Position numbers and translations under genes: made by a program | From: a virus | IMG/VR virus record: IMGVR_UViG_3300020463_002739 | Span: 1-58,694 of that record | Strand: one strand, 5' to 3' | DNA: 58,694 nucleotides | Notes under the pieces: generated by a model | What the model was told of the DNA's origin: nothing | Database searches by the model: none | The model's input: only the letters and a program-made list of their open reading frames with translations | Shown here: positions 3,753 to 35,513 of the stretch, one piece after another | Position numbering within the stretch: position 1 is the stretch's first letter | Layout: every line of letters begins with the position of its first letter

Positions 3753-3764
3753 ATATTTATATAC
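3753..3764 (+). promoter_or_regulatory. candidate late promoter, ATATTTATATAC
   Basis: An exact copy of the box lies right after a terminator and 19 bases before the ATG at 3784. No -35-like element is evident, as expected for T4-type late promoters. It would drive the virion gene run that starts at 3784. Confidence 0.65.
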
Positions 3765-13302: not shown

Positions 13303-16300
13303 ATGTTTGGAAATATGGGAAATAGTAGTTTTGCGTTCTTAAACTCGATAGCAGAGTCATTCAATGACCCTGCAGCAAGAGCTAGTGCGTATAACCCATT
13401 TCCACAAAATCAAACTCAAAATACTTTCTCACCTGGTAATTATTCTTTACCAGTTACTACATATGTGCCTGGCCCTCCAACTACCTCACCAACTACTGTA
13501 CGAACAAACCCTATACCAAATACCAGTCCACTTACTGGTATGAGTACTAACTATAGTAGTGGTGGAAGTACAAGAACTTTTAATCAACAAGATAGGGATT
13601 TAATAATATCAAGTGGTAATGCACCAGCTGCAGGTATCAGTACTGGTGTACCCGCGGGTTCAACGAAGGTAAATGCAACTACAAGTGTTGCAACAAATGT
13701 ACCCGTACAATCACAACCTACAGTACAGTTAACGCAGGTAGCTTCAAATGCTACAACCAAAGAAGTAACTCAAGTAACTGATAGTGATGCACTTGGTCTT
13801 ACCTCGGCAGGATTTACAGTTGATGAAATTGGAATATCAGATGGTGGAGCTGGAGCTATTAATAGTGGTGGATTGGGTGATAGTGGTGCAGGTAATAGAA
13901 ACATATCATTAAGACCTACTAAAGTTACAAGATTTTTATATGGCCCATATCTTGATTTTTGTAGTGCGTACGCAGGACGAAAACAAATGGGTAGGAGAAC
14001 TGTTTACATTGATAATGCTAGTGACCCAACATATCAGGCATATGATTTTTATGGTTCTCCTGATAATGCAGATAGTAGATTTAGAGGTCAAAATAGATTT
14101 TACTATGATGATATATATGGAGGAGTAGTTCAAATAGGTTTTGGTGGTCAAAGTATGGGTATGCTGGATGAAGAAGAACTCCAAGTTGAATGTAAAGTTA
14201 AAATCCCAATAAAACCTAAAAAAGTTAGTGTAACTTTAAATTTTAGCAAAGGAAACAATCACCCTTCACCACAATCTATAGTAAACCCTTCAGGTCAATT
14301 TACATCAAGAGTAAGTGGTACTATAGATAGAACAGGTGGAAGTAGAACAGAGGTAGTTGAACTTACAACGACTTCTGCTGGATTACAAACAACATTTTTT
14401 AGAGCATATAATGGTACAGTTAATAATGGTTCTATTACAGAATACAAATTAGAGTATTATGGTAAGTGGTATTTTAAATTATATAAAAGAACAAATATTA
14501 ATGGTTCACCAACTCCATATAGTGTAGTTTCTACACAAAGGATTACTGATAAAGGAAACTCTGTATCTCCAACGAGTATTAGTTTTAATTTATCTTTTGA
14601 TTATTTAAAGATAACACCACCACCAGTAAGGTCATTAACTGTATCTCCACCAACAGTAAACTTAAAAAGCACTGCTCAAGCAAGAGGAACTTTTACTATT
14701 ATAAGTTCACATCTTACAAAAGTTAACGCAATAAATGGTGCAACAAATGTAAAACACTCTGCACAGAGACAGGGACCAGATGGTAAGTATATTTCTACTG
14801 TTGATTATATTATTCCAGCAGCATCTGAGTTCGAATCATTTTCAGGTGAAAAAGAAGTGTATACATTTAAAGTTATGCACACCGATGTTAGTGGGCCAGG
14901 TCAAGCAGGTACATATGCTCAACACATGGTTTATCAACCAAAGTTGGTACAAATAAAAATTGACCCCCCTAAATCATATCCAGTCCAATTTAAGGTTAGA
15001 TATAAATTGGGTGAAAATGGAGTAAAGAGTGCAACAATAAATTGTGCTGGTGACTCCTCAATGAATGGTAGGATAGGTGAAACTAAAACAACAAGTAAAG
15101 TACAATTCTCTGAAACTTTTACTGGTTCACAAAAGGCGTTTACATGGACTGCATCAGCTCCAAATAGAATAGGAATAGATACTTACACTGCTAATGTTGT
15201 TGGTTCAAATAGAAATCCAGGCCCATCAAGTTTAGAAATTTATAGAAATGGTAAACTCTTTGCAAAACAAGAATTAAGTTTTGGTCAATTTGGTTATAAA
15301 GGCTCTTTAGTTTATGATGCAGGAAACCAACCTATAGATTTATTATTTGGATTTAACACAGTAGTTAAAGATGAAGAAAAAGACCCTGCACAATTAATAA
15401 TTAGGTCAAACATAAATACGGGTAATTGGGGTTATATTGAAATTCAAGATTTTGATGGTGATATAATATGGGAAGGGGATATAAGTTCATTTGATTCTAA
15501 CGATGAAAGCGATATCAAATCATCTGCTAAAATTGGATTTCAATATAAAGTAAATCTTAATAAAGGATTTGTAGTTGAAAAAATTGAACAAAAATCACCA
15601 GTTGTTCGAGCAGTTGACCCTAAATTATTAGGTACTGGATTTAGACAAGTTTCAGATGGAACATTAGATGAATACGAAGTTTCTGTAAGAAGAGAAGTAA
15701 ATGAAGAGGTTAATCCAGAAGTATTTCCAGCAAGAACAACATTTGAGTATCCAATAAATAGTGGAGCTAATGTAAACATACCATATTCTTCAAGAAATAC
15801 TTCTTATGTGAATTTCAAACTTCCATTTAATGAGGTAAATAACCAACCAGCAAATGGTAACTTTAAATTAGATGATAAGTACTTTACTAAAGGATTAGGA
15901 AGGTATCTAATAAATCTTTGTCCATATGGACCAAATGGTGAAAAGGGTGAAGAAAAACAAGTAGAAATAAATGTTGTAAGAAAAGAAACTACTAATTTTC
16001 CTGATATTAGAAAGATTAGTTATCCAAAATTAATTAAAGGAAAAGATTTTATAGGTTTAAATGTACCATTCTCATTCTCATATCAATCTGTCTATACAGA
16101 TTATGTAAAAGTATTTTTACATGATAAAGGAACTCGTATAGGTGGTAATAGGGCTGCAACAGATGCTATTAAATTAAATGTTCAAGATTTAGTAAAATAC
16201 ACAAACAAGTTTACAAAATCTGGTGATAAATATACATTTAACTTTTTACTTGTTCCATTTGGAAACGCTAATGGAAAAACTCTTGAGGGTAAGACAGAAC

Positions 16301-19300
16301 AAATTACAATCGTATTTGATGAGGGAGATTTTACATTAAATAGAGATGAAGTAATAGATAGAATATGTAAATCAGTTGCTTCCCAATTAGACCCAGATTT
16401 CTTTGATGGAAGAACTTCTAAATTACTAACACATCTATTACACTTTGGAGATGCTAACAATGAAATAATTTCTAATTGGGAAGCGGATACAGAAACATTT
16501 AGAGAATACAAAGTAGACCCAAAAACTGGTAGAGAGACAAACGAAAAGAAAGAAGGTGGATTCGATGCACTTGTACTTAAAATGTACGAACCACTTGAAA
16601 CAACTGTACAACCAAATCAACAAGTTTGGGTTACTAAAATACAATCTAAACCTCAAATTCATGAGGTAATTTTAAGGGAGAGTCAAGAAGATAGTTGTCC
16701 TCCTCTTGCAGCACCTAACTTTACTATTGATGTTAGTTCTGGTATGCAGTATGAAATATTTGATGATATTTTAGCAGTAAGTGAAAGTGCAACTAACGCA
16801 TCTTTAGTAAATACATTTGTATCACAAAGTGGAATCGATACTACTAAATTAGATATTGATTATATAAGTGGTTCAATAACTTATAACACAAGTTCAAACT
16901 CATATGAAAGTGCATCTTTACAACTTGCATATGAAAACTTTTCTCACTTTGGTTCTGCAGAAGAAAGAATTAAAAACTTTTACTACAAAGTTGGTTTAAT
17001 AGAAAACTATACAAATATTTCTGCATCACTTGAAACTGGTAGTTCAAAAACATCTTTATCTGTTGTTGCTGAAAAACAGAGACAGATTAGAAAAATAAAC
17101 GAAGTTAAGGCAGGATTTGATGGATTCGAAGAGTTCCTATATACAGACACAGGCTCTCTCGCATATCCAAAAAATTCAGGTGGTAATCTTTTAGGAACTG
17201 GTAGTTCAGATGCACTGGCATGGTATAACAATAATGTTTTTAGTGCAAGTAAATACGATTACGATAATGTAAACTACTTACCGAATAACATTCCACAATT
17301 CGTAAAAGACGATGAGGAAAATGGTGAGTTCATTATGTTTTTAGATATGATTGGTCAACACTTTGATATTTTGTGGACATATGTTGAATCTATTAATAGA
17401 ACAAGAAAAATAGAACACAAACAAAAATCAGGTCTTTCAGATGAGTTAGTGAGAGAGATGTTGCGTTCGTTTGGATATAAACCAAACTCATCAATCGAAA
17501 CTGCACCTTTATGGGAATTTGCCTTAGGACAATATAACTCAGCAAATTCAACAAGAACTGATGGAACTAGTCAATCAGTAATGACTGGTAAAGATAGACA
17601 GAATCAAATATGGAGAAGAATATTAAATAATCTTCCTTACTTATATAAATCTAAAGGTACTAAGCGAGGATTACAGGCAACTCTTGCAACATATGGTATT
17701 GGTGAAAATTTACTTAGAATAAAAGAATTTGGAGGCCCACCTGCTCAATTAACAACTTTAACAAAGATAAAAAATACAGAAAGGGTTAACTCTGCACAAT
17801 TAGTAAGTAATGCTAATTCTAAAGTAATAATACCATGGCACACTGGTTCTTCGTATCCACAAACAATAGAATTTTCTTTACAAACAGATACGAGACAAAA
17901 CGCAAAAATTGTATCTCATGATAATTTTTACTTAACACTAAATACAGATACTGGTTCTCAAGCAACATTTACCTTCCACATAACTGGTAGTGATACATCC
18001 ATATCTGCATCAACTGCACCTATAACATTCTTTAATGAAGAAATCAATACCTTCATGATAAGAAGAAGTGCTACTGCAGTTAATGAGGTATTTGATATCT
18101 TTGTAAAAGAACCAAGAGCAAAAAGAATACGAGCAGAAGTATCTCAATCAGTATCAACTGCAATCGGACAATCTGGTTGGGGTAGTGGTTCAACACTTGA
18201 AATAGGTGGTGTAGTAGGAACGATTGATAATGTAAAACTTTGGAAAACTGCTTTATCGGAATCGATATTTAATGAGCATGTTCTTGCACCTGATATGTAC
18301 AATGGTAACTCTATCACTGCATCTACTGAAGATTTATTTGTAAGACTAGATTTTGAAAAAGTAAAAGATTTGAGTACAAATGACTCTTTCTCTAATAGTG
18401 GTTCTTATAAAAATGTTGCACCAAACACTTCATTATATGGTGATACTTTTGTAACAATGAGTAAATTTACAACAAGTGGTACATATCCTCATAGTAGTTT
18501 TGAAGTTAAAACTGTAGAAAGAACAAGAACAATTCCATCTGTTGGGTTTGGTGAATCTGATAAAATATCAGCAATAAACCCAACACTCCAAACAGAATTA
18601 TCAGCAAAAGCAAGAGCAACAAAAACATTAACTGCAACTACTGGTATTGAATCAAATAGAATTGGTATATTTATTTCACCAACTGCTAATGTTAATAGAG
18701 ATATTATAAAAGCTCTTGGTGGAACATTTAGACTTGATGATTTTATTGGAGACCCATGTGACCAGTATGAAGAAGAATATACAGACCTTATAAACTTTAG
18801 AAAAAAATTCTTTAGTAAGTATTCGATAAATTACGATGGATTCTACAATCTCATAAAATATATTGACAAAACATTATTCAAAACATTATTAGGTGGAACT
18901 CCTGCTAGGTCAAAACCAAATACAGGTTTACTTATTGAACCACACTTACTTGAAAGAAATAAAGCTAGGAGAAAAAAACCATCTGGTATTGTTTTCGAAG
19001 AACAAATAGGTGTAGAAGATATATCAAAAGGCTCAGTAATTAGCATTGATGGAGATAGTATACAAATAGAAGGATTGTATTCACAATCACAATTACAACC
19101 AGAATTTAGTGGTGATACTGTAAACTTTGAAACAACGATGTCTCATGACTTTGTTAATAATCTATCAAGTGAAACTGTAAACTTTGAAACAACTATGTCT
19201 CATGATTTTGTTAATAACTTAACATCATCATTTTCTTTACTTGAAAGTTTTATAACTGGCTCTGCACCAAGTCCTATCAATACAACTATTGCGAGTGTGA

Positions 19301-19887
19301 ATAGTAACGAAGGTTCAATTATATTTAATATACCATCCCCATTAACTGGTTCTGCAGTTGGTATCTATGTAAGGGATGCATTTGAAACAGTACCTCCACA
19401 AGAAAATGATTATACATCATTTGGGTTTGGGGTAACTGGTGGTAAGAATGGACACTCAATAGTAACATTTAATACACCAAATGGTAGAGATAAAGAAAGA
19501 AGAAAATATTATTTAATAACAGAAACAGAAACAGATATATTTCCAATATTGAATAATAGTAACGACCAATCGAGTGGATATAATAATCAAACTGTTACAA
19601 CAAGTAAACAAAAAATAACATTTACATCCATCTCAGGTTCGGCACCTTCAGTTGCAGGAAACATCACGGCGGTTAAACCACTTGTAGGAAATTTACCGTC
19701 TCATTATATTTATATTAAAGACACTTCATTAGGGATGGAAAATTCTTTCTTTAATGGATGTAAACAAACACAAGCAACAACTATTGATGGTGGTCCTGCT
19801 TTTGAAACTTTTGTTACTAATCCTAACACATTGAAGGTTTCTGATAGTGGAAGAGGTAGTGGAGAACCAATATTAGATGTTGAATAA
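13303..19887 (+). CDS. giant tail/baseplate structural protein with LamG-like domain
   Basis: This 2194-residue protein is the largest complete gene in the window. The first 200 residues are a low-complexity P/T/S/G/N region. A series of beta-sandwich domains with Ig/FN3-like spacing follows to about residue 1000, and then a mixed region. Around residue 1442 is NNLPYLYKSKGTKRG with LATYGIGENLLRIKEFGGP after it. I recall this signature from very large structural proteins of marine tailed phages. Next, residues about 1510-1660 look like a concanavalin/LamG fold ending GTIDNVKLWKTALSE. Two tandem 19-residue repeats lie near residues 1939-1976. It may be a gp7- or gp10-like scaffold or a long side fibre; the class is not certain. 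Confidence 0.7.
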   Translation: MFGNMGNSSFAFLNSIAESFNDPAARASAYNPFPQNQTQNTFSPGNYSLPVTTYVPGPPTTSPTTVRTNPIPNTSPLTGMSTNYSSGGSTRTFNQQDRDLIISSGNAPAAGISTGVPAGSTKVNATTSVATNVPVQSQPTVQLTQVASNATTKEVTQVTDSDALGLTSAGFTVDEIGISDGGAGAINSGGLGDSGAGNRNISLRPTKVTRFLYGPYLDFCSAYAGRKQMGRRTVYIDNASDPTYQAYDFYGSPDNADSRFRGQNRFYYDDIYGGVVQIGFGGQSMGMLDEEELQVECKVKIPIKPKKVSVTLNFSKGNNHPSPQSIVNPSGQFTSRVSGTIDRTGGSRTEVVELTTTSAGLQTTFFRAYNGTVNNGSITEYKLEYYGKWYFKLYKRTNINGSPTPYSVVSTQRITDKGNSVSPTSISFNLSFDYLKITPPPVRSLTVSPPTVNLKSTAQARGTFTIISSHLTKVNAINGATNVKHSAQRQGPDGKYISTVDYIIPAASEFESFSGEKEVYTFKVMHTDVSGPGQAGTYAQHMVYQPKLVQIKIDPPKSYPVQFKVRYKLGENGVKSATINCAGDSSMNGRIGETKTTSKVQFSETFTGSQKAFTWTASAPNRIGIDTYTANVVGSNRNPGPSSLEIYRNGKLFAKQELSFGQFGYKGSLVYDAGNQPIDLLFGFNTVVKDEEKDPAQLIIRSNINTGNWGYIEIQDFDGDIIWEGDISSFDSNDESDIKSSAKIGFQYKVNLNKGFVVEKIEQKSPVVRAVDPKLLGTGFRQVSDGTLDEYEVSVRREVNEEVNPEVFPARTTFEYPINSGANVNIPYSSRNTSYVNFKLPFNEVNNQPANGNFKLDDKYFTKGLGRYLINLCPYGPNGEKGEEKQVEINVVRKETTNFPDIRKISYPKLIKGKDFIGLNVPFSFSYQSVYTDYVKVFLHDKGTRIGGNRAATDAIKLNVQDLVKYTNKFTKSGDKYTFNFLLVPFGNANGKTLEGKTEQITIVFDEGDFTLNRDEVIDRICKSVASQLDPDFFDGRTSKLLTHLLHFGDANNEIISNWEADTETFREYKVDPKTGRETNEKKEGGFDALVLKMYEPLETTVQPNQQVWVTKIQSKPQIHEVILRESQEDSCPPLAAPNFTIDVSSGMQYEIFDDILAVSESATNASLVNTFVSQSGIDTTKLDIDYISGSITYNTSSNSYESASLQLAYENFSHFGSAEERIKNFYYKVGLIENYTNISASLETGSSKTSLSVVAEKQRQIRKINEVKAGFDGFEEFLYTDTGSLAYPKNSGGNLLGTGSSDALAWYNNNVFSASKYDYDNVNYLPNNIPQFVKDDEENGEFIMFLDMIGQHFDILWTYVESINRTRKIEHKQKSGLSDELVREMLRSFGYKPNSSIETAPLWEFALGQYNSANSTRTDGTSQSVMTGKDRQNQIWRRILNNLPYLYKSKGTKRGLQATLATYGIGENLLRIKEFGGPPAQLTTLTKIKNTERVNSAQLVSNANSKVIIPWHTGSSYPQTIEFSLQTDTRQNAKIVSHDNFYLTLNTDTGSQATFTFHITGSDTSISASTAPITFFNEEINTFMIRRSATAVNEVFDIFVKEPRAKRIRAEVSQSVSTAIGQSGWGSGSTLEIGGVVGTIDNVKLWKTALSESIFNEHVLAPDMYNGNSITASTEDLFVRLDFEKVKDLSTNDSFSNSGSYKNVAPNTSLYGDTFVTMSKFTTSGTYPHSSFEVKTVERTRTIPSVGFGESDKISAINPTLQTELSAKARATKTLTATTGIESNRIGIFISPTANVNRDIIKALGGTFRLDDFIGDPCDQYEEEYTDLINFRKKFFSKYSINYDGFYNLIKYIDKTLFKTLLGGTPARSKPNTGLLIEPHLLERNKARRKKPSGIVFEEQIGVEDISKGSVISIDGDSIQIEGLYSQSQLQPEFSGDTVNFETTMSHDFVNNLSSETVNFETTMSHDFVNNLTSSFSLLESFITGSAPSPINTTIASVNSNEGSIIFNIPSPLTGSAVGIYVRDAFETVPPQENDYTSFGFGVTGGKNGHSIVTFNTPNGRDKERRKYYLITETETDIFPILNNSNDQSSGYNNQTVTTSKQKITFTSISGSAPSVAGNITAVKPLVGNLPSHYIYIKDTSLGMENSFFNGCKQTQATTIDGGPAFETFVTNPNTLKVSDSGRGSGEPILDVE
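19117..19230 (+). repeat. tandem 57-bp repeat (2 copies) in the giant tail gene
   Basis: Copies at 19117-19173 and 19174-19230 both encode TVNFETTMSHDFVNNL plus three residues. They differ at only a few bases, mostly silent, which indicates a recent in-frame duplication or selection to keep both. Confidence 0.9.
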
Positions 19888-23396: not shown

Positions 23397-23960
23397 TTGG
23401 GATTATTACAATCTGATAAATGGTTATTTGTGCATGTACCTAAAACAGCAGGTACATCTATTTCCAATGTTCTTAAAGAAAAGGATTGTGTTGAATTAGC
23501 AACACATGGTAAATTAGAATCTCAAAGAGATTTGGGAAATAGATTTGTTTTCGCATTTGTTCGAAATCCATTTGAATGGTTTGGTTCTTTATACCATTCC
23601 CATATTAGACAGCACAGAAAATTACCAATCGAAGAATTTATAAAAACGCATGAATCTTGGGACTATTTTTTTGATACACAAACAAGTTGGATTAAATATA
23701 ATGGTTTGTTAGATAGAATTAATTTTATAGGAAAGTATGAAAATCTGAATAAAGATTTTAAAATAGTTTGTGAAAGTATAGATTACAAAGATAGTAGTTT
23801 AACTTTAGAAAACTATAATACGATAAGAGATATATATCCAAATATGGATATGTATGATTACTACAGAAAAAGATGTTACACTAATCCAAAAGTTGTAGAA
23901 TTCGTTAGAGAAAAATACAAAGAGGATTTTAAAAATTTTGACTATGGCTTGGCATTATGA
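23397..23960 (+). CDS. sulfotransferase-like protein
   Basis: This 187-residue protein carries the two PAPS-binding signatures of sulfotransferases. The 5'-phosphosulfate loop is FVHVPKTAGTS (residues 11-21), and the 3'-phosphate site is FAFVRNPFEWFGSLYH (about 52-67). It is short for the family (usually 250 or more) but has the core. The start must be TTG at 23397, because an in-frame stop lies at 23388-23390 and there is no ATG before the P-loop. The enzyme would move sulfate from PAPS to a sugar or protein. It lies at the end of the virion genes, 12 kb before the glycan cluster, and could act on the same glycan. Confidence 0.75.
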   Translation: MGLLQSDKWLFVHVPKTAGTSISNVLKEKDCVELATHGKLESQRDLGNRFVFAFVRNPFEWFGSLYHSHIRQHRKLPIEEFIKTHESWDYFFDTQTSWIKYNGLLDRINFIGKYENLNKDFKIVCESIDYKDSSLTLENYNTIRDIYPNMDMYDYYRKRCYTNPKVVEFVREKYKEDFKNFDYGLAL

Positions 23961-25320: not shown

Positions 25321-26504
25321 TATACATTTTAGATAAACCATACAATCAAGGCTTGTATGAACAATGGATAGATGTTGTAGATAGAACTAACATTCCATAT
25401 GAAGTTATAGTTTTGAACAGACAAGAGGCGGATTTAAAGTTTCCTAATTATTTAGGTAATAAAAAAACATTAAATTTTCTCAAAAATAAAATAAAAACTG
25501 ATGATTTACTATTAATTGATAGTGCATTCTTCCAACCGATTGAAGGGGATGTGGAGAGTAATATAAAGTACATCCAAAAAGAATTAGGTTGTAAAATTAT
25601 AGTATTTCATCCAGATACTGGTTTTGATACCAAACTAAGATTCGGAGATAAAGTAAAAGTATTATCACCAACTTATCATATAGATGAAGATGTTGAATCA
25701 AAAAAAGATTCATATAATTTTTATCTTGTAAATGGAGGATATCAAGAACTAAGATGGTTAGCAGAAACTGTATGGTTAAGATACAGAGAAATGTTAAGAT
25801 ATAAAAAGTTTTTATCTCATAATGGTGTTTATAAACTACAAAGAACTTTAATCTATAAAACACTAAAAGAAAATAATTTACTAAAAGATAGTTTTTTCTC
25901 ATATAATGCCTATAATATTTTTGATGATAATATAAATCATAATAAAGATGAAGATACTAAATACGAAAATCATATAATAGAAAATATAGAACCAATATAT
26001 AGTAAAACTACACATGAAGAACTTTTAAAAGATTTACCAATAGTATTAGATTATATACCAAATCTATCAAATGTAGACCAATATGCATTTACTCTTCCAT
26101 ATACTTCAAACGCATACATAGAACTAATTGGATGTACTACTATTGATTCTAGCGATGTTGTTTACACATCCGAAAAAATATTCAAACCATTTATGGCTTT
26201 TATGATACCTGTATTTGTAGGCCCATCGAACTTATGTAAAACTTTACAACAACTTGGGTTTGATTTATTTGATGATATGATTGATTTATCATATGATGAA
26301 GAAATAGATACTGTAAAAAGATTATCTATGGTGATGGAAGAAATAAAAAGATTAGGAAAATATAGTATACAAGACCTACATAATATGTATTGGACCAGAG
26401 AACAAGGTCTACGCAACAACCATCAACTGATGCAAGAACTGGCAAGAAATCAAGTAGAAACAATTAGAGGATTACTCGAACCTCATAAGAACAAACTAAT
26501 ATGA
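25317..26504 (+). CDS. glycosyltransferase-like protein (paralogue 1 of 3)
   Basis: This 395-residue protein has a C-terminal segment SEKIFKPFMAFMIPVFVGP followed by LQQLGFDLFDDMIDLSYDEE. The same segment recurs in the proteins at 43927-45342 and 49971-51410. A (T/S)EK..KP....P..... pattern of this kind resembles the nucleotide-sugar end of fucosyltransferase-like GT-B enzymes. The N-terminal half is variable. It is wedged between primase and the SbcCD-like fusion with ATGA overlaps on both sides, so it is expressed with replication genes. Whether it is active on DNA, a nucleotide or a glycan is unknown. Confidence 0.6.
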   Translation: MIYILDKPYNQGLYEQWIDVVDRTNIPYEVIVLNRQEADLKFPNYLGNKKTLNFLKNKIKTDDLLLIDSAFFQPIEGDVESNIKYIQKELGCKIIVFHPDTGFDTKLRFGDKVKVLSPTYHIDEDVESKKDSYNFYLVNGGYQELRWLAETVWLRYREMLRYKKFLSHNGVYKLQRTLIYKTLKENNLLKDSFFSYNAYNIFDDNINHNKDEDTKYENHIIENIEPIYSKTTHEELLKDLPIVLDYIPNLSNVDQYAFTLPYTSNAYIELIGCTTIDSSDVVYTSEKIFKPFMAFMIPVFVGPSNLCKTLQQLGFDLFDDMIDLSYDEEIDTVKRLSMVMEEIKRLGKYSIQDLHNMYWTREQGLRNNHQLMQELARNQVETIRGLLEPHKNKLI

Positions 26505-29500
26505 TAATAAATAAAGTTTATCATTTGGCAGATTTACATATTCGTAATCTCCAAAGACACAAAGAATATAAAATTATATTCAAAAAGTTTTTAAAACAAG
26601 TTAAAGAAGATAAGATAGAAGATTCTATCATTTATATCGCTGGTGATATTGCTCATGCCAAAACAGAGATGTCACCTGAACTCGTACAAGAAATCAGTTG
26701 GTTTCTTACCGAGTGCTCTAAACTTAGAGAAACTGTATTGATTACAGGTAATCACGATTGTAACTTAAATAACTCACACAGACTAGATGTACTCACACCT
26801 ATTATCGAAAATCTTAACAACGATAGAATTCATTATCTTCGTGATACTGGTATCTATAATATCTATAACCTTACTTTTGTTGTCTACTCTATATTGGATG
26901 ACAAGGAAAATTGGCCTAAAGGAGATACCATTGATGGAGAGAATACAATATGTCTTTTTCATGGACCGGTAAACAAGGCACAAACTGATATTGGATACAC
27001 CGTATCATCTAACTCATTTACTGTAGATATGTTTGATGGGTTCGATATGGTTATGTTAGGAGATATCCACAAAAGACAAACTTTTGGAAAAGGATACGAA
27101 CATATTGCATATGCAGGTTCTATGATTCAACAAAATCATGGAGAACTCCTTGAGAATCATGGATATTTGTTATGGGATATTACAACACGAACTTTTACTG
27201 AACATCATCTTCACAACGATTATGGGTTCTTAACTGTTGATGTAGTAAAAGGAAAAATACCTCAATGGGTTTATGATGAAGTTGGTACGAAACTTCCTAA
27301 ACATCCAAGATTAAGATTAAGGTTTACTCAAACAGAGGCAGCTGATATGAAACGAAAAATAACTGAACTCAAAAAGTTATTTAAAGTTCAAGAGGTTACT
27401 GTTACAAGAACCGATACAATCGGACAACTTAAAACAAATCAAAAGGTAAATAAAAACATTGTTGGTAATGTCAAGGATGAAACCTTCCAAAACCAACTTA
27501 TCAGAGATTACTTAGAAAGACAGTATCTATTAGAAGATGAGGAACTAAATAAGATTACAGAACTAAATACAGAATTAAACTCTCGTATTAATCAAGATGA
27601 CTTAGCAGAGAACATTCTATGGACACCTAAAGATTTTGAGTTCTCTAATATGTTCTCGTATGGTGAAAACAACTTAGTAAGGTTTGATAGAGCACAAGGT
27701 ATCATTGGTATCTTCGCTCCTAACGCAAGTGGTAAATCATCACTCTTCGATGCACTCTGTTTCTGTATCTATGATAGAACAAGTAGAACTGCCATCTCTA
27801 AAAACATTTTAAACAATCGTAGAGATAACTTCTATTGTAAGTTTAACTTTGAGATAGATGGAGTTGACTTCTTCATTGAGAGACGTGCTAAATGGACAAG
27901 GAAGGGTACTAACCTTAAAGTTGATGTAAGCTTTTGGAAAGTAGATGGTGGAGTAACTCAATCACTTAATGGTGAACAACGAAGAGAAACTAACAAGAAC
28001 ATTGAGAAGTATCTTGGTAAGTTCGAGGATTTTGTACTAACTACTCTTTCACTACAAGGAAACAACGCACTCTTTATTGATAAATCACAATCGGAAAGAA
28101 AAGAAATACTTTCACAATTTATTGGAGTAGATATCTTTGATAAACTCTACCAAAGTGCAGCAGATGAGAATAGGGATAATGCAACACTTATCAGAAAGTT
28201 CAAGTCTGACGATTTTACGACGCGACTCGCACAAATCGAAACAGATTTAAAGGAGGTTAAACAAGAGTACAAACTTTTAGATATAGAACAAGAATCATCT
28301 GTAAAGAAAGAAGATGATTTACAAAATCAAATTGTAAGATTAAATGAGAAGATTGTAAAGTTAAATGCAGATAGTGGTGTATCTATTGAAGAGTTAGAAA
28401 AAAGATTAAAAATTTTACAAAAGAAGAAGGAAGATAGCACCTCTCAAAAAGATTCTATACAAGATAGAATAAGTCATAGAGAAGATATACAACTTGAATT
28501 AGAAGAAATACTTGATAAATTTGATGAAGAAGATTTAGAAAAAAGTATTGGTATTTTAAATCTAAAAAAGATAAAATTATCTGATGTAGAATCTGATATC
28601 GAAAAGGTAAATATAAAATTAGAATCTCTCTACGAAAGAAAAGACCATTTAGATTCTCACAAATACAACGAGGATTGTGATATTTGTATGGAAAATTCAC
28701 AAACTATTTTAGAAACAAAAGAAAAAGTAGAATCTGAAATAAAAAAGAATCAATCAGAACTTCAAGGTTTTGAAAAAGAAAAATTAGAATTTAATCTTGA
28801 AATAGATTCTTTAAAAGGTTACGAAAAAGAATGGAAAAACTTTCAAGAGGCTAAACAAAAAGAAGATAAGATTGATAGAGAGATATCTCAACTTATTAAC
28901 AAGTTATCAACAACTGAAACTGAAGAATACAAGTTTGTAACCCAAATAGCACAGCAAGAACAACTTATTGAGGAATATTATAAGAACGAAAAACAAATTA
29001 AGAAAAACAAAGAAATCCGAGATGAAATCGTAGATGTTCGTTCTGATTTAGATAAAGTAAAACAGATTATCAAAAACAATAACGCAGAGATTCTTTCACT
29101 TAATGGTAAAATATCTGCACTTCAAAATCAAAAAGAAACTATTGAAGATAGAATTCAAGAAGTTAAAGATTTAGAAGAACAATCAAAATTATATCAGTTT
29201 TACTTAAATGCACTTTCAAAAGATGGTGTATCTTATGAGTTGATTGAAAAATCATTACCGATGATTGAAGGTGAGGTAAATAACATTTTAGGACAAATTG
29301 TAGATTTCGGTATGCAGTTAGAGATTGATGGTAAGAACATCAATGCGTATCTTGTATATGGAGACCAAAGATGGAGTTTAGAAATGTGTAGTGGTATGGA
29401 AAGATTTATTAGTGGTTTAGCAATCCGAGTTGCTCTAATCAATGTATGTAATCTACCACGACCTAATTTCCTTGTGATAGATGAAGGATTTGGTACATTA

Positions 29501-29659
29501 GATAGTGAGAACCTACAATCCTTATTTATGTTGTTTACATATCTTAAAACACAATTTGACTTTGTAATGATTATATCTCACATTGATTCCATGCGAGATG
29601 TTGTAGATGGATTAGTTGAAATTAAAAAAGATAATGGATTCTCAAATGTTAAGTATTAA
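26501..29659 (+). CDS. 47-46: fused recombination nuclease gp47-gp46 (Mre11/SbcD plus Rad50/SbcC)
   Basis: This 1052-residue protein joins two subunits that are separate genes in T4 and bacteria. Residues 1 to about 340 are the calcineurin-like nuclease, with HLADLHIR (8-15), GDIAHAK (48-54), GNHD (83-86), LFHGPV and LGDIHKRQ. Residues about 375-1052 are the SMC-like ATPase: Walker A with K412 (NASGKSS), a long coiled coil, the zinc hook CDIC (C726, C729), the signature SGMERFISGLA and Walker B LVIDEG (D994, E995). The pair resects DNA ends for recombination-dependent replication. All catalytic motifs of both parts are present, so the fusion is probably active. The ATG overlaps the previous stop (ATGA). 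Confidence 0.93.
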   Translation: MIINKVYHLADLHIRNLQRHKEYKIIFKKFLKQVKEDKIEDSIIYIAGDIAHAKTEMSPELVQEISWFLTECSKLRETVLITGNHDCNLNNSHRLDVLTPIIENLNNDRIHYLRDTGIYNIYNLTFVVYSILDDKENWPKGDTIDGENTICLFHGPVNKAQTDIGYTVSSNSFTVDMFDGFDMVMLGDIHKRQTFGKGYEHIAYAGSMIQQNHGELLENHGYLLWDITTRTFTEHHLHNDYGFLTVDVVKGKIPQWVYDEVGTKLPKHPRLRLRFTQTEAADMKRKITELKKLFKVQEVTVTRTDTIGQLKTNQKVNKNIVGNVKDETFQNQLIRDYLERQYLLEDEELNKITELNTELNSRINQDDLAENILWTPKDFEFSNMFSYGENNLVRFDRAQGIIGIFAPNASGKSSLFDALCFCIYDRTSRTAISKNILNNRRDNFYCKFNFEIDGVDFFIERRAKWTRKGTNLKVDVSFWKVDGGVTQSLNGEQRRETNKNIEKYLGKFEDFVLTTLSLQGNNALFIDKSQSERKEILSQFIGVDIFDKLYQSAADENRDNATLIRKFKSDDFTTRLAQIETDLKEVKQEYKLLDIEQESSVKKEDDLQNQIVRLNEKIVKLNADSGVSIEELEKRLKILQKKKEDSTSQKDSIQDRISHREDIQLELEEILDKFDEEDLEKSIGILNLKKIKLSDVESDIEKVNIKLESLYERKDHLDSHKYNEDCDICMENSQTILETKEKVESEIKKNQSELQGFEKEKLEFNLEIDSLKGYEKEWKNFQEAKQKEDKIDREISQLINKLSTTETEEYKFVTQIAQQEQLIEEYYKNEKQIKKNKEIRDEIVDVRSDLDKVKQIIKNNNAEILSLNGKISALQNQKETIEDRIQEVKDLEEQSKLYQFYLNALSKDGVSYELIEKSLPMIEGEVNNILGQIVDFGMQLEIDGKNINAYLVYGDQRWSLEMCSGMERFISGLAIRVALINVCNLPRPNFLVIDEGFGTLDSENLQSLFMLFTYLKTQFDFVMIISHIDSMRDVVDGLVEIKKDNGFSNVKY

Positions 29660-29810
29660 CTCTTAAAACATTTGTTGGAGGTTTTGCAGAAACTTTTTCT
29701 TTAATTAACTTTTCAATCAATCCACTTTTACTATAACCATTGTCCGCACAATAATCACTTAGTAATTTAAGTGTTTCTTTCCTTATTTGTATAGTAGAAT
29801 ATTTTCCCAT
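29649..29810 (-). CDS. ribbon-helix-helix DNA-binding protein
   Basis: This 53-residue protein is encoded on the minus strand, the only such gene found. It begins MGKYSTIQIRKETLKLLSDY, with the beta-strand motif STIQIRKET typical of Arc/CopG/MetJ repressors, followed by two helices (LKLLSDYCADNG and SGLIEKLIKEKV). RHH proteins are dimeric repressors. Its 3' end overlaps the fused nuclease gene by 11 bases, and its upstream side faces the tail-fibre promoter. It may regulate that divergent region or itself. A partial copy of the late box (ATATTTATTCTA, minus strand, 29820-29831) lies before it. Confidence 0.75.
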   Translation of the reverse strand: MGKYSTIQIRKETLKLLSDYCADNGYSKSGLIEKLIKEKVSAKPPTNVLRVNT

Positions 29811-29850
29811 AGATTTCTATAGAATAAATATAAAGATATTATTTTTGTTT

Positions 29851-29862
29851 ATATTTATATCC
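29851..29862 (+). promoter_or_regulatory. candidate late promoter abutting the tail-fibre start, ATATTTATATCC
   Basis: The first 10 bases match the box. It ends only 2 bases before the ATG at 29865. If transcription starts about 5-7 bases after the box, as in T4 late promoters, the fibre mRNA would be leaderless. It lies in the intergenic region shared with the minus-strand RHH gene. Confidence 0.5.
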
Positions 29863-29864
29863 AC

Positions 29865-32800
29865 ATGGCTATTATAAAGAAATTTTCACCTTATCAAAAT
29901 TTAAGTGGGTATGGTGTCTTTTTAAAAGATACAAACCCTAACTCAGATTACTTTAGAATTACTGAGCTAGGAGAGAACTTGACTGGTGGTAAGAATGGAT
30001 TCCTCATTGAAGGTTCTGAGTGTTTAAAAGAAACAACAGAAATAAAAATAGAAATATTAGATGTAAATGGAAATCCAGTCTATTTCGAACCAGGTGGAGG
30101 TGCACCAGAATATTTTGAAGGATTATCAAAAGTAGTAGGTGTTTACATTTACGAGGATACTCCAATCGGACTTGGTAAGATAACGATATTAGGTGAACTA
30201 AAAGATTACTTTGATGAAGAAGGAAACAAAATAGATATACCAGATGATTGGAAAGATATCTATAATGTTAAATGGGAAAAACAGCTTAACATAAACAGAA
30301 ACCTTCCAAATGAATCAAGAGTACGATTTTTTAAAAGACCAAAGATATCAATAGAGGAATTATCAAAACCTTTATTTACAAAAACAATCCCAACTATTAC
30401 ACAAACTGGTAGTTTAGAGGGTACACCACAAGTTCCTGCCGAAGGACAGGATTATAGACAATATGCAGGTGGAGTACTTTATAAACTAACAAAAACTTCA
30501 GGTCCGAACTTTACCTCTTCTATTGATGAAAATGTAATATCATTCCCTTCAATCAATTATTTCCCAAATGTTAAAGAAGTGTTAAGTGAAACTGAGGTGT
30601 TGGTTGATACTCCATTTACAAGTTCGACGGGAATAGTACAACCATTCAGTAGTACTACATACACATCATCCTTTGAAAATAATGCGGGTGCAACAGTAGT
30701 AGAATCTGCACTGACTGGTTCATTTGCAAAAATAAAAATTACAAATTTAAAAACATTTGTTGGTGATGTTGCAAGAGTAAAAGTATTTAGAAAATCAAGA
30801 AACGAAACTGGTGATTTTCAATTTGTTCAAGAACAGTTATTAGAATCAACTGAATTACTAAAAGATATAACTACAGCAGCAGATACAGAATTATCTTATG
30901 GTGTATTCGATGATTACAATCTAACAACATATTGGATTAGTGGTTCTTCTACCCATCCAATTACACTTAATAACTCACAATTATTAAATGGTGTAAAGAT
31001 TGATTATGCAGGAAGTGGTACACAATTATTTTATACTTCTGAATCTATTGATTTTGGAAACAATATTGAATATAATCTAAGTTTCAAAACAAAACTAAGT
31101 GGTTCGGTAGATGAATCAAAACAAATCAGAGCATTTTTAAGTTCATCTGCATTCACACAATCCATAGTAACTGTTAGTGGTTCTGCCGATACATTACAAA
31201 AATTTGATGTATCAAAAAATATAATATCAGCAAATTCTGGTAGTGCAAGATTAGTATTTGAAATAAATGGTGATGATTGGTATATATCAAATGTATCTTT
31301 AAGAAACGCACAAGAATCGAGTTTTTCACCAGATGAATTCACATTAGTACAAGAAGTACCGAGAAAGTTAGATACTGAATTTTTTGATTTTAAATTTGAA
31401 TTCTACGATATAAATAACAATTTTATTCCTATCAAAGTAAAAGCAGCAAAAGAGTTTAGTGGAGGTAATTTAACAACAACATCAAATGTTAGATTATTAG
31501 AATTCGAAACTGATAGAACTGCATTTAGATTTTCAAGTGGTTCATTAGGTAATCCACCATTCCAACAATCGAGATTTAAAGTAACATCAAATGGGTTGAC
31601 TGGTTCAATTACATTTGCATCTGCAGCATTCGATAAAGCAGGAACATATATTAACCCATCATCTTACTCTGGGCCATATCCAGGTGGATTAACAACTAAC
31701 AATGTTTTAACTATTTCTTCATTTAGTGGGTCTGATACAAATTATATAGTAGGTTCAATAACCTATACCGCATCTATCGAAGATAAAGAAGAAATAGAAA
31801 CTATAACAAGATTCGAAGATGGTGAACCTGCATCTGCACTTATTGTAACATCAAACCAAAATCAGTTCTTTTATAAAGCAACAGATTTATCAGTTGAACC
31901 AAGTGGACAAGTAATAACGATTCAAGCACAAAGAAAAAACTTAGTATCAGATACTACTACAATCACTGCTAATAGTGGTAGTGGTAAACCTGGCCTTACT
32001 GTAGGTTCAACAACAAATGGTATAACTACATTTACTCTAAATGCATCTGATTATCCATTTGGGACAGGAAACACCACATATGAATTTAGTGGTTCTGATG
32101 AATTTGGTTCTGTATTTACAGATAGAATTTCTGTATCACCAGTCAAAAAATTAGATGGTATTAGTTTTAGTACTACAACAAATAATCAAACATTTAATGC
32201 AACTTCACAGAGTGCAGTATCATCACTAGCGGATAGTAGTGGTTCAGTAACATTTAGAATTGGTTCTGAAACTATTCAACACCAAAATGGATTATCATCA
32301 AATAACAGATTTGATATTGTTGGTATTACTGGTTCTGGTGTAACACCAACAGATACTACTCCAAGTAAAAATGAATATTCAATTTCTGCATTTGGTTCGG
32401 ATAGTGGTTCACTAACAATTAACATAAATTATAAAGATGGTAGTGGAGATGTAACTGAACATCAACAAATAGTAAATTATACAAAAGCAATTGCTGGTAA
32501 TGTGGGTTCAGATGGTGCAGATGGTGCAAGTGGTTCTGATGGTGCACCTGGAGCTGTTGGACCTGGAATAACTTACAGAGGAACATGGACTCTTAATGAA
32601 ACTTATGTTTCTTCATCTTTGAGAAGAGATGTTGTACAAGGTTCTAATGGAGAATATTATTTAGCTAAATCTTCTCATACTGCAAATAACGCTAATCAAA
32701 GACCAATTGATGGTGGTTCATACACAACATATTGGGATGCATTTGGTGCAACATTTAGTTCAGTTGCAACTGATATTTTATTCTCACAAGATGTATACGC

Positions 32801-35513
32801 AAATAGAACAGTAAATGTAGGTTCAAGTGGTTCTGGCTATCCAGTCATAGCATTAAATGCAGATACCTCAAACGCAGGAACAAATCAAAACCCATATATT
32901 GCAATTGGTGGAATTACTGCATATGCTGCATCAGAAGGAATTTATATAGGTAGACATGGTGGTAATAGTAATGTAATGAGTTTAAAGGGTGGTGCATCCG
33001 ATGGATTCCTTACATGGGATGGTAGTAATCTGAATATACAAGGTTCAATCAATATAACAGGTGGAGCAACAGCAGATTCCTTAAGTGCATTAAATGCAGA
33101 AACAAGTTCACTACAAACTGGTGTAACTAATTCTGTACTAAGTGGTTCTGCAGCAGCTTCAACTGCTCAATCAAATGCTCAAACTTTCGCGAGTACCGCA
33201 GCAGGAGATGCAGTAACAAGTGGTTCTTCAGCAGCTTCAACTGCTCAATCAAATGCAATTGCTTCATCAACTACACTTTTGAATACAAGTGCATCTGCTC
33301 TTCAAGGAAACATCGATACCGCTCAAACAACTGCAAATACTGGTGTTTCAAATGCTGCAACTGCTCAATCAACCGCAAATACTGGTGTTTCAAATGCTGC
33401 AACTGCTCAATCAACCGCAAATACGGCTATTGCTTCTGCTGGAGCTAGTGGTTCTGTTGACCCTACAACTGGTAAGTTAATAAAAGCAATATCACCAAGT
33501 GGAGCTGGTTTATTTTTGGGTGCAGACCAACTTGGATATTATGCAGGTGGTGCCTGGACATCATATCTATCAAGTAGTGGGGATTTTGAATTAAGTGGTA
33601 GTACTGGTTTCTTACAATGGAATCAAGGTTCGTCATCATTATTAGTACATGGTAGAATTAGTGGTTCACAAATAGAAGGTGGTTCTCTTGCAGGTAGTAC
33701 TATATCAATAGGTGCAGATGTAAACAATCCAAAATTCAATGTAGATGCTGATGGGAACATGACTTGTCAAGATGCAAATGTATCAGGTTCGATTAAATTA
33801 ACATCTGGTGTTGTAGGATTATGGGAAGCACAAGAATCATCTTCTGGTGGAAAATTTGTATCTGTAAATGATGATTTGATTTTAGACCCGGTCGTACCTG
33901 AAATAATATTCAAAACTGGTTCTGAAACTAAGTTAAGATTAAAACCAGCAGATGAATGGGCATCAACAAGTGGTGGAAATATCTCTATAAATGATATGAA
34001 TGTTTCACAGGCCGGAGGTTCACCACCATTACCAACAAGTTCTACAACCAGTACTTATTTGGTTTATGCAGCTGAAGAAGCACAATCATTAACATCAACA
34101 ACCTATACAATAGACCAAACTGGTACATATGAACTACAAGTCTATACTCCAAGTGCACTTGATATAAGTACACCCTCTTCAACTTCAGGTGGGACTGCTC
34201 AATATCCAAATTATAGTCCATCTTATCAAAATCAAACGCATCCACCATTTGCATTTAGTGGAAGTCCAAAAGCCCATTACTTTTACGTCTATGTGAGAGC
34301 AGTAAATCAATCAACAAGTGCTACAACTGATGTTTTAGTAAGTAGTGGTAATCGTCGTGGTGCCTATACAACAACTCAAACTTGGCAAGCTGTCTCGGCT
34401 GGATATGGATTACAATGGCAATCAAATTCTGGAACATACTATGCATCAAGTGATAGTGGTATAGTTTCATCAAATAGTCAAAAAACAGTTAATATAACAT
34501 TGGCTGCAGGAACTTATAAATTTCAGTATTATATAAAAATAGGTGCTTCAAGTGGGTTATATACTAATTATGATTCTTCTGGTAACGCCACAAATTATTA
34601 TCAAACAACAACTCCGAGTTCTGCAACATACACACTTACATCAACAAATCAGTATATGACTATCGTTATACCAACGAATGTTGTTGAATTAACTTCAAAA
34701 GGATTACAGGTTTTAAATGATTCAACAAAATATGTTCAGATTGAAAGACAGGGTAGTGGATGGGGGTCTCAACCAGTACTTATCAATGTAAAAGGTGGAA
34801 AAATAGATATTAATGGTGATAACACTTCAACTCAAGCAGATTTAGAAGCAAAATATGGATACTTTGCAACTTCTTCGATAAACATATTAATGCTAAATTA
34901 TAATAGTTCTCAAACGACACTTGGGAATCTTCGAAGTACTATTTACGCAGCAGGAGATTTTGACCCTGCATATAGTAGTACTGGTAACTCAACTCGCGAT
35001 ATGGGTAATACAAGTAGATGGTGGGATGAGATATACGCAGATAACTTTAACAACGAATCTGATGAAAGAATTAAAGAAAATATTAGTGGTTCAGAACTTG
35101 GATTAGATTTTATAAATTCATTAAGACCAGTACAATATAACTTTAAACAAAGTAGTAAGAAAAGAACCAGATACGGTCTTATTGCTCAAGAAGTTTCGGC
35201 ATCTCTTGGTCAATTTGGAAAAACTACTCAAAATTTTAAAGGATTAAATACAGGTTCAAGTAAAATTGCTGGTATAGAAAGTAAATTTAACAAACCAATT
35301 TCTGAAATAGTATCGAGTGGTTCACACTACTTACACACAGATTTAGAAGGAACTGGTTCAGGAGAAATAACACAAGAGTGGGTTGATAATGAAATTAGTT
35401 CATCTATATGGACACTAACTTACAATGAATTTATATCACCTTTAATTAAATCAGTACAAGAGTTATCTGCAAAGGTAACACAATTAGAAAATCAAATAAG
35501 TGGTTCTGAGTGA
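29865..35513 (+). CDS. tail fibre with C-terminal S74 chaperone
   Basis: This 1882-residue fibre begins with an attachment-type N-terminus (IIKKFSPYQNLSGYGVFLKD). Long S/T/G-rich beta regions follow, then a seven-triplet collagen-like stretch (near residues 881-901) and a Trp/Tyr-rich module (YRGTWTLNETYVSS) that looks like a chitin-binding type 3 fold. Next come Ala/Ser/Gln repeats with heptad character around residues 1080-1195, and receptor-binding-like beta structure. The end is an intramolecular chaperone of peptidase S74 type: SDERIKENISG from S1732, then RTRYGLIAQEVSASLGQ. In this family the chaperone trimerises the fibre and cleaves itself off. Host recognition is the likely role. The next gene, a glycosyltransferase, overlaps the stop (GTGA). 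Confidence 0.88.
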   Translation: MAIIKKFSPYQNLSGYGVFLKDTNPNSDYFRITELGENLTGGKNGFLIEGSECLKETTEIKIEILDVNGNPVYFEPGGGAPEYFEGLSKVVGVYIYEDTPIGLGKITILGELKDYFDEEGNKIDIPDDWKDIYNVKWEKQLNINRNLPNESRVRFFKRPKISIEELSKPLFTKTIPTITQTGSLEGTPQVPAEGQDYRQYAGGVLYKLTKTSGPNFTSSIDENVISFPSINYFPNVKEVLSETEVLVDTPFTSSTGIVQPFSSTTYTSSFENNAGATVVESALTGSFAKIKITNLKTFVGDVARVKVFRKSRNETGDFQFVQEQLLESTELLKDITTAADTELSYGVFDDYNLTTYWISGSSTHPITLNNSQLLNGVKIDYAGSGTQLFYTSESIDFGNNIEYNLSFKTKLSGSVDESKQIRAFLSSSAFTQSIVTVSGSADTLQKFDVSKNIISANSGSARLVFEINGDDWYISNVSLRNAQESSFSPDEFTLVQEVPRKLDTEFFDFKFEFYDINNNFIPIKVKAAKEFSGGNLTTTSNVRLLEFETDRTAFRFSSGSLGNPPFQQSRFKVTSNGLTGSITFASAAFDKAGTYINPSSYSGPYPGGLTTNNVLTISSFSGSDTNYIVGSITYTASIEDKEEIETITRFEDGEPASALIVTSNQNQFFYKATDLSVEPSGQVITIQAQRKNLVSDTTTITANSGSGKPGLTVGSTTNGITTFTLNASDYPFGTGNTTYEFSGSDEFGSVFTDRISVSPVKKLDGISFSTTTNNQTFNATSQSAVSSLADSSGSVTFRIGSETIQHQNGLSSNNRFDIVGITGSGVTPTDTTPSKNEYSISAFGSDSGSLTININYKDGSGDVTEHQQIVNYTKAIAGNVGSDGADGASGSDGAPGAVGPGITYRGTWTLNETYVSSSLRRDVVQGSNGEYYLAKSSHTANNANQRPIDGGSYTTYWDAFGATFSSVATDILFSQDVYANRTVNVGSSGSGYPVIALNADTSNAGTNQNPYIAIGGITAYAASEGIYIGRHGGNSNVMSLKGGASDGFLTWDGSNLNIQGSINITGGATADSLSALNAETSSLQTGVTNSVLSGSAAASTAQSNAQTFASTAAGDAVTSGSSAASTAQSNAIASSTTLLNTSASALQGNIDTAQTTANTGVSNAATAQSTANTGVSNAATAQSTANTAIASAGASGSVDPTTGKLIKAISPSGAGLFLGADQLGYYAGGAWTSYLSSSGDFELSGSTGFLQWNQGSSSLLVHGRISGSQIEGGSLAGSTISIGADVNNPKFNVDADGNMTCQDANVSGSIKLTSGVVGLWEAQESSSGGKFVSVNDDLILDPVVPEIIFKTGSETKLRLKPADEWASTSGGNISINDMNVSQAGGSPPLPTSSTTSTYLVYAAEEAQSLTSTTYTIDQTGTYELQVYTPSALDISTPSSTSGGTAQYPNYSPSYQNQTHPPFAFSGSPKAHYFYVYVRAVNQSTSATTDVLVSSGNRRGAYTTTQTWQAVSAGYGLQWQSNSGTYYASSDSGIVSSNSQKTVNITLAAGTYKFQYYIKIGASSGLYTNYDSSGNATNYYQTTTPSSATYTLTSTNQYMTIVIPTNVVELTSKGLQVLNDSTKYVQIERQGSGWGSQPVLINVKGGKIDINGDNTSTQADLEAKYGYFATSSINILMLNYNSSQTTLGNLRSTIYAAGDFDPAYSSTGNSTRDMGNTSRWWDEIYADNFNNESDERIKENISGSELGLDFINSLRPVQYNFKQSSKKRTRYGLIAQEVSASLGQFGKTTQNFKGLNTGSSKIAGIESKFNKPISEIVSSGSHYLHTDLEGTGSGEITQEWVDNEISSSIWTLTYNEFISPLIKSVQELSAKVTQLENQISGSE
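32505..32567 (+). repeat. collagen-like G-X-Y stretch in the tail fibre
   Basis: Seven consecutive Gly-X-Y triplets (GSD, GAD, GAS, GSD, GAP, GAV, GPG) are typical of a triple-helical hinge in phage fibres. Confidence 0.85.
33333..33416 (+). repeat. tandem 42-bp repeat (2 copies) in the tail fibre
   Basis: Two copies (33333-33374 and 33375-33416) appear identical and encode the 14-residue unit ANTGVSNAATAQST. Related Ala/Ser/Gln segments lie just upstream. Identical copies suggest recent duplication in the fibre stalk. Confidence 0.85.

Follow-up and report, generated by a model that had tools for sequence, protein, structure and literature searches.

A conserved ribbon-helix-helix gene divergent from the tail-fibre gene of large uncultured phages, with a putative tandem operator set at a constrained distance from the fibre promoter-like box

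The small minus-strand ORF that precedes the tail-fibre gene in the phage DNA analysed here is a real gene, conserved across a family of large uncultured phages, and its product is predicted to be a ribbon-helix-helix (RHH) protein. The spacer shared by the two genes holds a well-defined putative operator, an array of near-palindromic boxes with a 10-bp period, which was overlooked in the initial annotation and is the strongest evidence. A constrained physical link joins this putative operator to the promoter-like box of the fibre gene. On these sequence grounds, the protein is probably an autorepressor that is dedicated to one spacer and acts on the fibre promoter too.

The stretch analysed, called the window hereafter, is the whole of IMG/VR record IMGVR_UViG_3300020463_002739 (58,694 bases, G+C content 31.6%). 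Fifty plus-strand ORFs, selected by hand from the ORF list, cover 98.3% of it, and its other genes include baseplate-wedge, primase and fused SbcD-SbcC genes. The RHH gene (29649..29810, minus strand; 53 aa from an ATG start, a call supported by conservation and dN/dS) occupies the biggest plus-strand inter-ORF gap of the window, 205 nt long. It is convergent with the fused SbcD-SbcC gene (SbcDC; 26501..29659, plus strand, a 1052-aa ORF), which it overlaps by 11 nt, and divergent from the tail-fibre gene (29865..35513, plus strand; 1882 aa, with an S74 chaperone domain near the C-terminus), both neighbours having been assigned from the ORF call and Pfam/PHROGs. The 53-residue frame of the initial annotation is thus present, as is its 54-base intergenic region, since the RHH start lies 54 nt from the fibre ATG at 29865. 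The annotation had also called this the only minus-strand gene: seven minus-strand ORFs of at least 20 aa occur, mostly in DNA uncovered by plus-strand ORFs, and the RHH ORF is the single one with an ATG start.

Some features of the surrounding DNA are recorded here. The SbcD phosphoesterase and SbcC ATPase domains are combined in a single ORF (26501-29659), for which the closest named phage relative is that of Microcystis phage Mel-JY01, at 37% identity; a search of genome contigs confirmed no SbcDC relative. The baseplate genes are followed by a 2194-aa ORF (13303-19887) with no PHROGs match at E 0.001, and Nol-like carbamoyltransferase and sulfotransferase-like genes are found at 1106-2851 and 23397-23960.

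Conservation of the RHH gene is documented by several searches. A search of IMG/VR proteins with the RHH protein gave 12 relatives, all in the order SbcDC, RHH (minus strand), fibre, and an alignment search gave 26 loci, these 12 among them. A locus set that does not presuppose the RHH gene was fetched through SbcDC (the best 80 of 412 matching stretches, designated by L-numbers) and scanned with an RHH profile built from the relatives found earlier. The profile matches 72 of these 80 loci, on the minus strand in 72/72; these are matches of the family profile, the window protein alone being weak. RHH lies upstream of and divergent from the fibre gene in all 71 loci with the fibre in view, so that both the open frame and the divergent pair, which the initial annotation had suggested looking for in relatives, are conserved. 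The dN/dS of 17 pairs chosen by hand, calculated from their first 40 codons, is 0.02-0.12 in 13 and 0 in 2; the remaining pairs are L028/L046, with saturated dS, and L078/L081 (1.34), excluded as a pair whose sequences are offset by one codon. In four RHH-negative loci (L030, L031, L032 and L052) a homologue of the fibre (39-41% identity) is present and the profile finds no RHH, while L033, L042 and L088 stop within 1.2 kb of SbcDC and L099 is without the SbcDC end. Whole-record searches of 13 records found one convincing RHH each in 8; the four RHH-less records and Mel-JY01 yielded none, and the G001 record has an additional 15-bit match inside a 492-aa frame. No RHH relative was found by tblastn of annotated phages.

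The RHH gene belongs with the fibre rather than with SbcDC, because its place upstream of the fibre is kept where further genes have come to lie towards SbcDC: its end is more than 200 nt from SbcDC in 25 of the 72 RHH loci, with intervening genes in the cases read. Where the two genes are adjacent, the RHH and fibre starts are 54-117 nt apart. They are 476-787 nt apart in 10 loci (L070, L074, L089, L091-L093, L095-L098), and in the five distinct cases read among these a minus-strand gene overlaps the RHH start in an operon-like manner. Minus-strand genes that overlap or abut the RHH start occur in 10/72 relatives, and two that were tested are without a PHROGs family. A minus-strand protein of 131-132 aa is encoded by a gene overlapping the RHH start in L074 (6809-7204), L089 (6082-6480), L092 (2168-2563) and L095 (6831-7226); this gene seems to be co-transcribed with RHH, and its L074 copy has no PHROGs family.

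Assignment to the RHH fold is weak for the window protein alone and better for the family, and profiles are its main basis. The window protein alone matches RepB-RCR_reg in Pfam at E 0.0026 (18.1 bits, below the cut-off of 21) and an Arc-like repressor in PHROGs at E 8.5e-4. An Arc-like PHROG matches 9/9 family members at E <= 0.1, with a best value of 6.6e-6. Among 46 members, Pfam families RHH_1, RHH_4 and RHH_5 are reached at E <= 0.01 by 5/46, 6/46 and 5/46, respectively, and a RelB-family model of NCBIfam matches 7/46 weakly (best 9.2e-5); NCBIfam and Pfam matches at E <= 0.01 are weak and of mixed families. A monomer model predicted from the 46 sequences (pLDDT 77) has helices at residues 11-24 and 28-40, the strand not being assigned in the monomer. 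With this model, Foldseek places CopG, Arc and NikR among its top rows, none reaching E 0.001; for CopG 1ea4 the TM is 0.67 and the rmsd 1.7 Å over 44 columns, but E is 0.42. VIA-align Z values are 6.4 for PutA and 5.7 for CopG and AmrZ; with Arc, the four span 5 to 6.4, none of them 8 or above, and such values alone are not decisive. An earlier model, predicted from 9 sequences (pLDDT 62), had no structural match of use. In sequence searches of solved structures, the best match of the profile is NikR (E 0.27), and the single window protein matches only designed repeat proteins (E 0.07-0.08).

The boxes of the putative operator read TTCT(A/T)T(A/G)NNN (short form TTCT(A/T)TAGNN) and are near-palindromic; 68 stand with RHH proteins of the Thr type and 37 with those of the Met type, defined below. 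They were studied in 54 spacers, that of the window and those of 53 distinct loci, with L051 left out of the spacing counts since its contig ends there. With a strict pattern, CT[ATC]T[AG], the step from one box to the next is exactly 10 bp in 55 of 60 cases. At least two strict boxes in a 10- or 20-bp register are present in 40/54 spacers, and fewer than two in 14/54, including the window. The window has a clean box, TTCTATAGAA, a perfect palindrome (29815..29824, plus strand) located 34 bp, counted from its C to the box, from the fibre box. It also has a degenerate 10-bp box, TCCCATAGAT (29805..29814, plus strand), over the RHH start codon, which the strict pattern misses and which was assigned from its sequence (8/10 to TTCTATAGAT) and register. 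The inverted repeat ATAGATTTCTAT, first seen by eye, is better taken as two adjacent 10-bp boxes; its pattern with up to 2 mismatches has 8 window matches against 3.35 expected, the exact one only at the spacer.

The 10-bp period is also apparent in the self-similarity of 42 distinct spacers, which peaks at lag 10 with a z of 10.3 (0.8 and -0.7 at lags 9 and 11), values inflated by related sequences in the sample. Lags 2, 4, 6 and 23-25 likewise exceed shuffles (z 3.7-8.6, the highest at lag 2) because the spacer sequence is TA-rich. In 12 records, a triple-box pattern has 5 matches, 5/5 at the RHH-fibre locus, and its reversed control none. A two-box pattern is no better than its reversed control outside this locus, and has 6 matches in the window against 4.07 expected. 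The four RHH-less loci retain the fibre box, and the 120 nt that precede their fibre gene contain no operator boxes; RHH is thus not needed for every such fibre. These four loci are identical (4/4) in AACAATTCTACTTTTACATATTTATATGT just before the fibre ATG, and differ in the preceding coding DNA.

The distance from the proximal operator box to the ATA(T/C)TTAT box of the fibre is 34 bp in 39/54 spacers, 33 bp in 11/54 and 44 bp in 3/54, L067 being without a clear box. The flanking distances vary more widely: in the same spacers the RHH start lies 6-45 bp from the proximal box (adjacent cases), and the fibre ATG 6-30 nt from the fibre box. The minimum numbers of length changes on the fibre and SbcDC trees are 10 and 12 for operator to fibre box, 19 and 25 for fibre box to ATG, and 23 on both trees for operator to RHH. 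In the 39 spacers of equal length, the 26 bp separating operator from fibre box have a mean identity of 49%, against 40% expected from composition, and therefore their length is held more than their sequence. When a minus-strand gene separates RHH from the array, the array keeps near the fibre box, at 34 bp in L070, L074, L092 and L095 and at 44 bp in L089. A composite of box, spacing and fibre box, derived from the RHH-fibre loci themselves with the window included, has one match in the window, at the spacer, where 0.03 are expected. In 12 records this composite has 10 matches, 7 at the RHH-fibre locus and the others at G004:104239, G002:29805 and G005:35031, against 1 for the reversed control; it misses its own locus in 4 of 11 RHH-bearing records.

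The promoter-like box of the fibre gene is ATATTTATATC (29851..29861, plus strand), assigned from box counts in the window and its relatives. It begins at 29851 as ATATTTATA(TC), and ATATTTATA has 10 matches in the window against 4.4 expected, 9/10 on the plus strand. Exact copies of ATATTTATATA are found at 3753, 6040, 19909, 21827 and 54762, all of them in intergenic DNA on the plus strand, with a gene following after 13-27 nt. Across 12 related records, 137 copies of ATATTTATATA follow the majority direction and 6 go against it, to be read beside a reversed control that is not a clean null, having the core ATATTTATA in common and itself giving 87 to 9. One of the six contrary copies (G009:9181-9191) faces RHH and overlaps the operator at 9190-9214.

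The late-type box of the initial annotation is therefore present, and its class exceeds chance, but it is not that of T4. The class is the reverse complement of the T4 late promoter TATAAATA: the exact TATAAATA that the spacer contains (29852-29859) is in minus-strand orientation, while the coding-strand element before genes is TATTTATA, in 5/5 exact 11-mers of the window. Identity with a T4-type late promoter is ruled out by this orientation. Copies of TATAAATA as such are no more frequent in the window than chance predicts (12 against 12.75 expected). A T4 gp55 query had no match in 8 relatives, and the gp55 families phrog_234 and phrog_12791, both positive for T4, had none in 5 relatives or in Mel-JY01, in records that may be incomplete and by searches that would miss a diverged sigma. 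In the literature searched, TATTTATA was not found as a phage late promoter.

The minus-strand partial copy described in the initial annotation exists as a ATATTTAT core running from 29831 to 29824 on the minus strand, a possible RHH promoter, but it does not exceed chance in the window, where the best minus-strand 11-mer scores 9/11 and is equalled by 24% of shuffled spacers. As a general RHH promoter the minus-strand copy was rejected, the mean best score being 8.8/11 against 8.2/11 in shuffles; it is at or under 5% against shuffles in 8/54 spacers only. Exact 11/11 copies face RHH in L038, L043, L050 and L053, and sigma-70-like -35/-10 elements were noticed by eye in some relatives. Before the fibre gene, the ATATTTAT core ends 6 nt from the ATG in the window, L023, L036 and L041, so that, if the core is compared to a -10 element, the fibre message may be leaderless in these four.

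Residue 6, in the RHH strand, is Thr or Met, and its identity follows the type of box. Under a lenient rule, Thr6 goes with A-type boxes (CTAT) in 39/39 cases and Met6 with T-type boxes (CTTT) in 13/15, the exceptions being L089, whose CTATAG box is A-type, and L067, in which no box is clear. Under a strict rule, the Thr6 cases are A-type in 33/39 with 6 undecided, and the Met6 cases T-type in 13/15, with 1 undecided and 1 scored A-type from a match beyond the fibre box. The residue label switches five times on each best tree, and well-supported branches force four switches on the SbcDC tree and three on the fibre tree. Hitch-hiking could also produce the pairing, because the gene adjoins its boxes and is swapped with them; of the independent pairs, 2-3 of 3 agree with the pairing and none is opposite, which falls short of significance. 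In AmrZ (PMC3325190), three alternate strand residues contact bases and the middle one forms a hydrophobic pocket on two bases. By analogy, RHH residue 6 would be the counterpart of this middle residue.

An exchange of regulators is seen in L075 (Met, T-type) and L076 (Thr, A-type), whose SbcDC and fibre segments are nearly identical. Going downstream, the DNA before their fibre genes turns alike at the fibre box, and therefore the exchanged unit is RHH with its operator, the fibre keeping its own box. A minus-strand gene beside the Met-type RHH of L075 (5839-6330) matches a PHROGs homing-endonuclease family (E 3.5e-8), and one in L067 (5855-6313, minus strand, also beside a Met-type RHH) is similar to it by eye. 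The homing-endonuclease-like gene of L075 is a possible vehicle for the exchange.

In the mechanism proposed, each near-palindromic box of the tandem 10-bp array would take up one RHH dimer, and binding at these positions, over or next to the start of the RHH gene, would shut off that gene's minus-strand transcription. Judged by the nearly constant distance between array and fibre box, the bound dimers would also influence the polymerase at the promoter of the fibre, and the protein would thereby set the level or timing of fibre expression. If the fibre box is -10-like, the centre of the proximal operator box would fall at about -45 in the numbering of the fibre transcript, and those of further boxes at about -55 and -65, with T4 geometry used for placing the operator relative to the transcript start; the same boxes would lie at or downstream of a transcript start set by the minus-strand core. 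The box positions fit activation, repression and a relief of competition between the two promoters alike. Activation, by contact or by silencing of a competing divergent promoter, is weighed somewhat above repression. The boxes adjoin the RHH start and stand ahead of the fibre box, a position from which they need not block the fibre. A fuller version can be put forward tentatively, as a speculative possibility: a dual switch in which RHH would be both autorepressor and contact activator of the fibre promoter, the regulator and operator would form an exchangeable cassette, the receptor-binding organelle would be under separate control, timed or varying from cell to cell, and residue 6 against the box centre would constitute a natural two-letter RHH recognition code.

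The initial annotation had instead suggested that RHH represses the fibre gene until late infection. Control of the fibre as such is favoured by the putative operator and its 33-34 bp spacing in 50/54 spacers, whereas repression until late is not, the boxes having no need to block the fibre. Dimers spreading from the boxes over the fibre promoter, in the manner proposed for the archaeal virus protein SvtR (precedent in PMC5569661), would account for an operator held at a fixed distance from the fibre box. Yet the array extends away from that box, and the promoter-like box of the RHH gene in some relatives is the same as that of the fibre, so that both genes may share one temporal class; this explanation is possible and rather doubtful. 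A pure autorepressor controlling its own gene only, beside a fibre gene that adjoins by chance or by a convenient divergent layout, would equally place boxes over or beside the RHH start, and it agrees with the exact promoter-like boxes facing RHH in L038, L043, L050 and L053 and with the joint movement of RHH and operator in L075/L076 while the fibre retains its own box. It is nevertheless fairly unlikely, as the operator keeps a far more constant distance to the fibre box than to RHH, and RHH does not part from the fibre where genes have entered between it and SbcDC (25/72 more than 200 nt from SbcDC).

The fixed spacing could also reflect two divergent promoters built as one unit, and minus-strand box-like sequences do lie at a fairly constant distance from the plus-strand box in part of the loci. 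That such a bidirectional architecture explains both spacing and boxes, with RHH binding elsewhere or nowhere, is unlikely: the exact 10-bp repetition, the box palindromes and the residue-6 pairing would be left unexplained, and minus-strand boxes exceed chance at 5% in only 8 of 54 spacers. Most improbable of all is a solo antitoxin or a ParR-like partition protein with no part in fibre expression. Antitoxins and ParR commonly have the RHH fold, the RelB-family model of NCBIfam weakly matches 7/46 members (best 9.2e-5), and ParR of plasmid pB171 binds 10-bp repeats (PMC9426499). The linkage, however, is with the fibre, and the window has no same-strand partner: no toxin gene adjoins RHH on its strand, there being no other minus-strand gene, and no same-strand gene lies beside RHH to supply a ParM partner.

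The reading preferred here, autorepression together with an action on the fibre promoter, bears on phage biology. Tailed phages are usually thought to make their fibres within bulk late expression. If the proposal is true, some large phages control their host-recognition organelle separately, through a dedicated, conserved and exchangeable fibre regulator. The L075/L076 exchange and the pairing of Thr/Met with A/T boxes make RHH specificity directly testable, and the operator of a phage RHH protein would be readable from metagenomes alone.

Among the matches listed in the literature search, no RHH regulator divergent from a bacteriophage tail-fibre gene was found. The predicted fold and autoregulatory position recall CopG, Arc and MetJ, and tandem short operators are known for MetJ, as proposed for the RHH boxes. 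The 10-bp period and box sequence of the RHH operator differ from those of these three repressors, and the window protein lies below Pfam cut-offs. In the ParR/parC system of plasmid pB171, an RHH protein binds two 10-bp direct repeats, according to PMC9426499; the window RHH differs in having no same-strand partner gene, one to three boxes and a phage fibre context. AmrZ, according to PMC3325190, is an RHH protein that autorepresses and activates other genes, but it is a bacterial host regulator with another DNA sequence and two half-sites joined by a linker. The nearest parallel in target is SvtR of the archaeal virus SIRV1 which, according to PMC5569661, binds its own promoter, has its highest affinity for the promoter of a tail-fibre structural gene and is thought to prevent premature fibre expression, with spreading proposed. 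Both are small virus-encoded RHH proteins with the fibre gene as a likely target. SvtR differs in that it works with archaeal transcription, from a site ~80 nt away from the promoter elements of gp30, and has an imperfect inverted repeat as its putative consensus; no sequence relation to the window RHH is shown, and regulation by the window RHH is putative, read from positions and spacing. The RHH protein looks like an autoregulating repressor that resembles SvtR in its likely target, a variant set apart by its geometry and cassette exchange.
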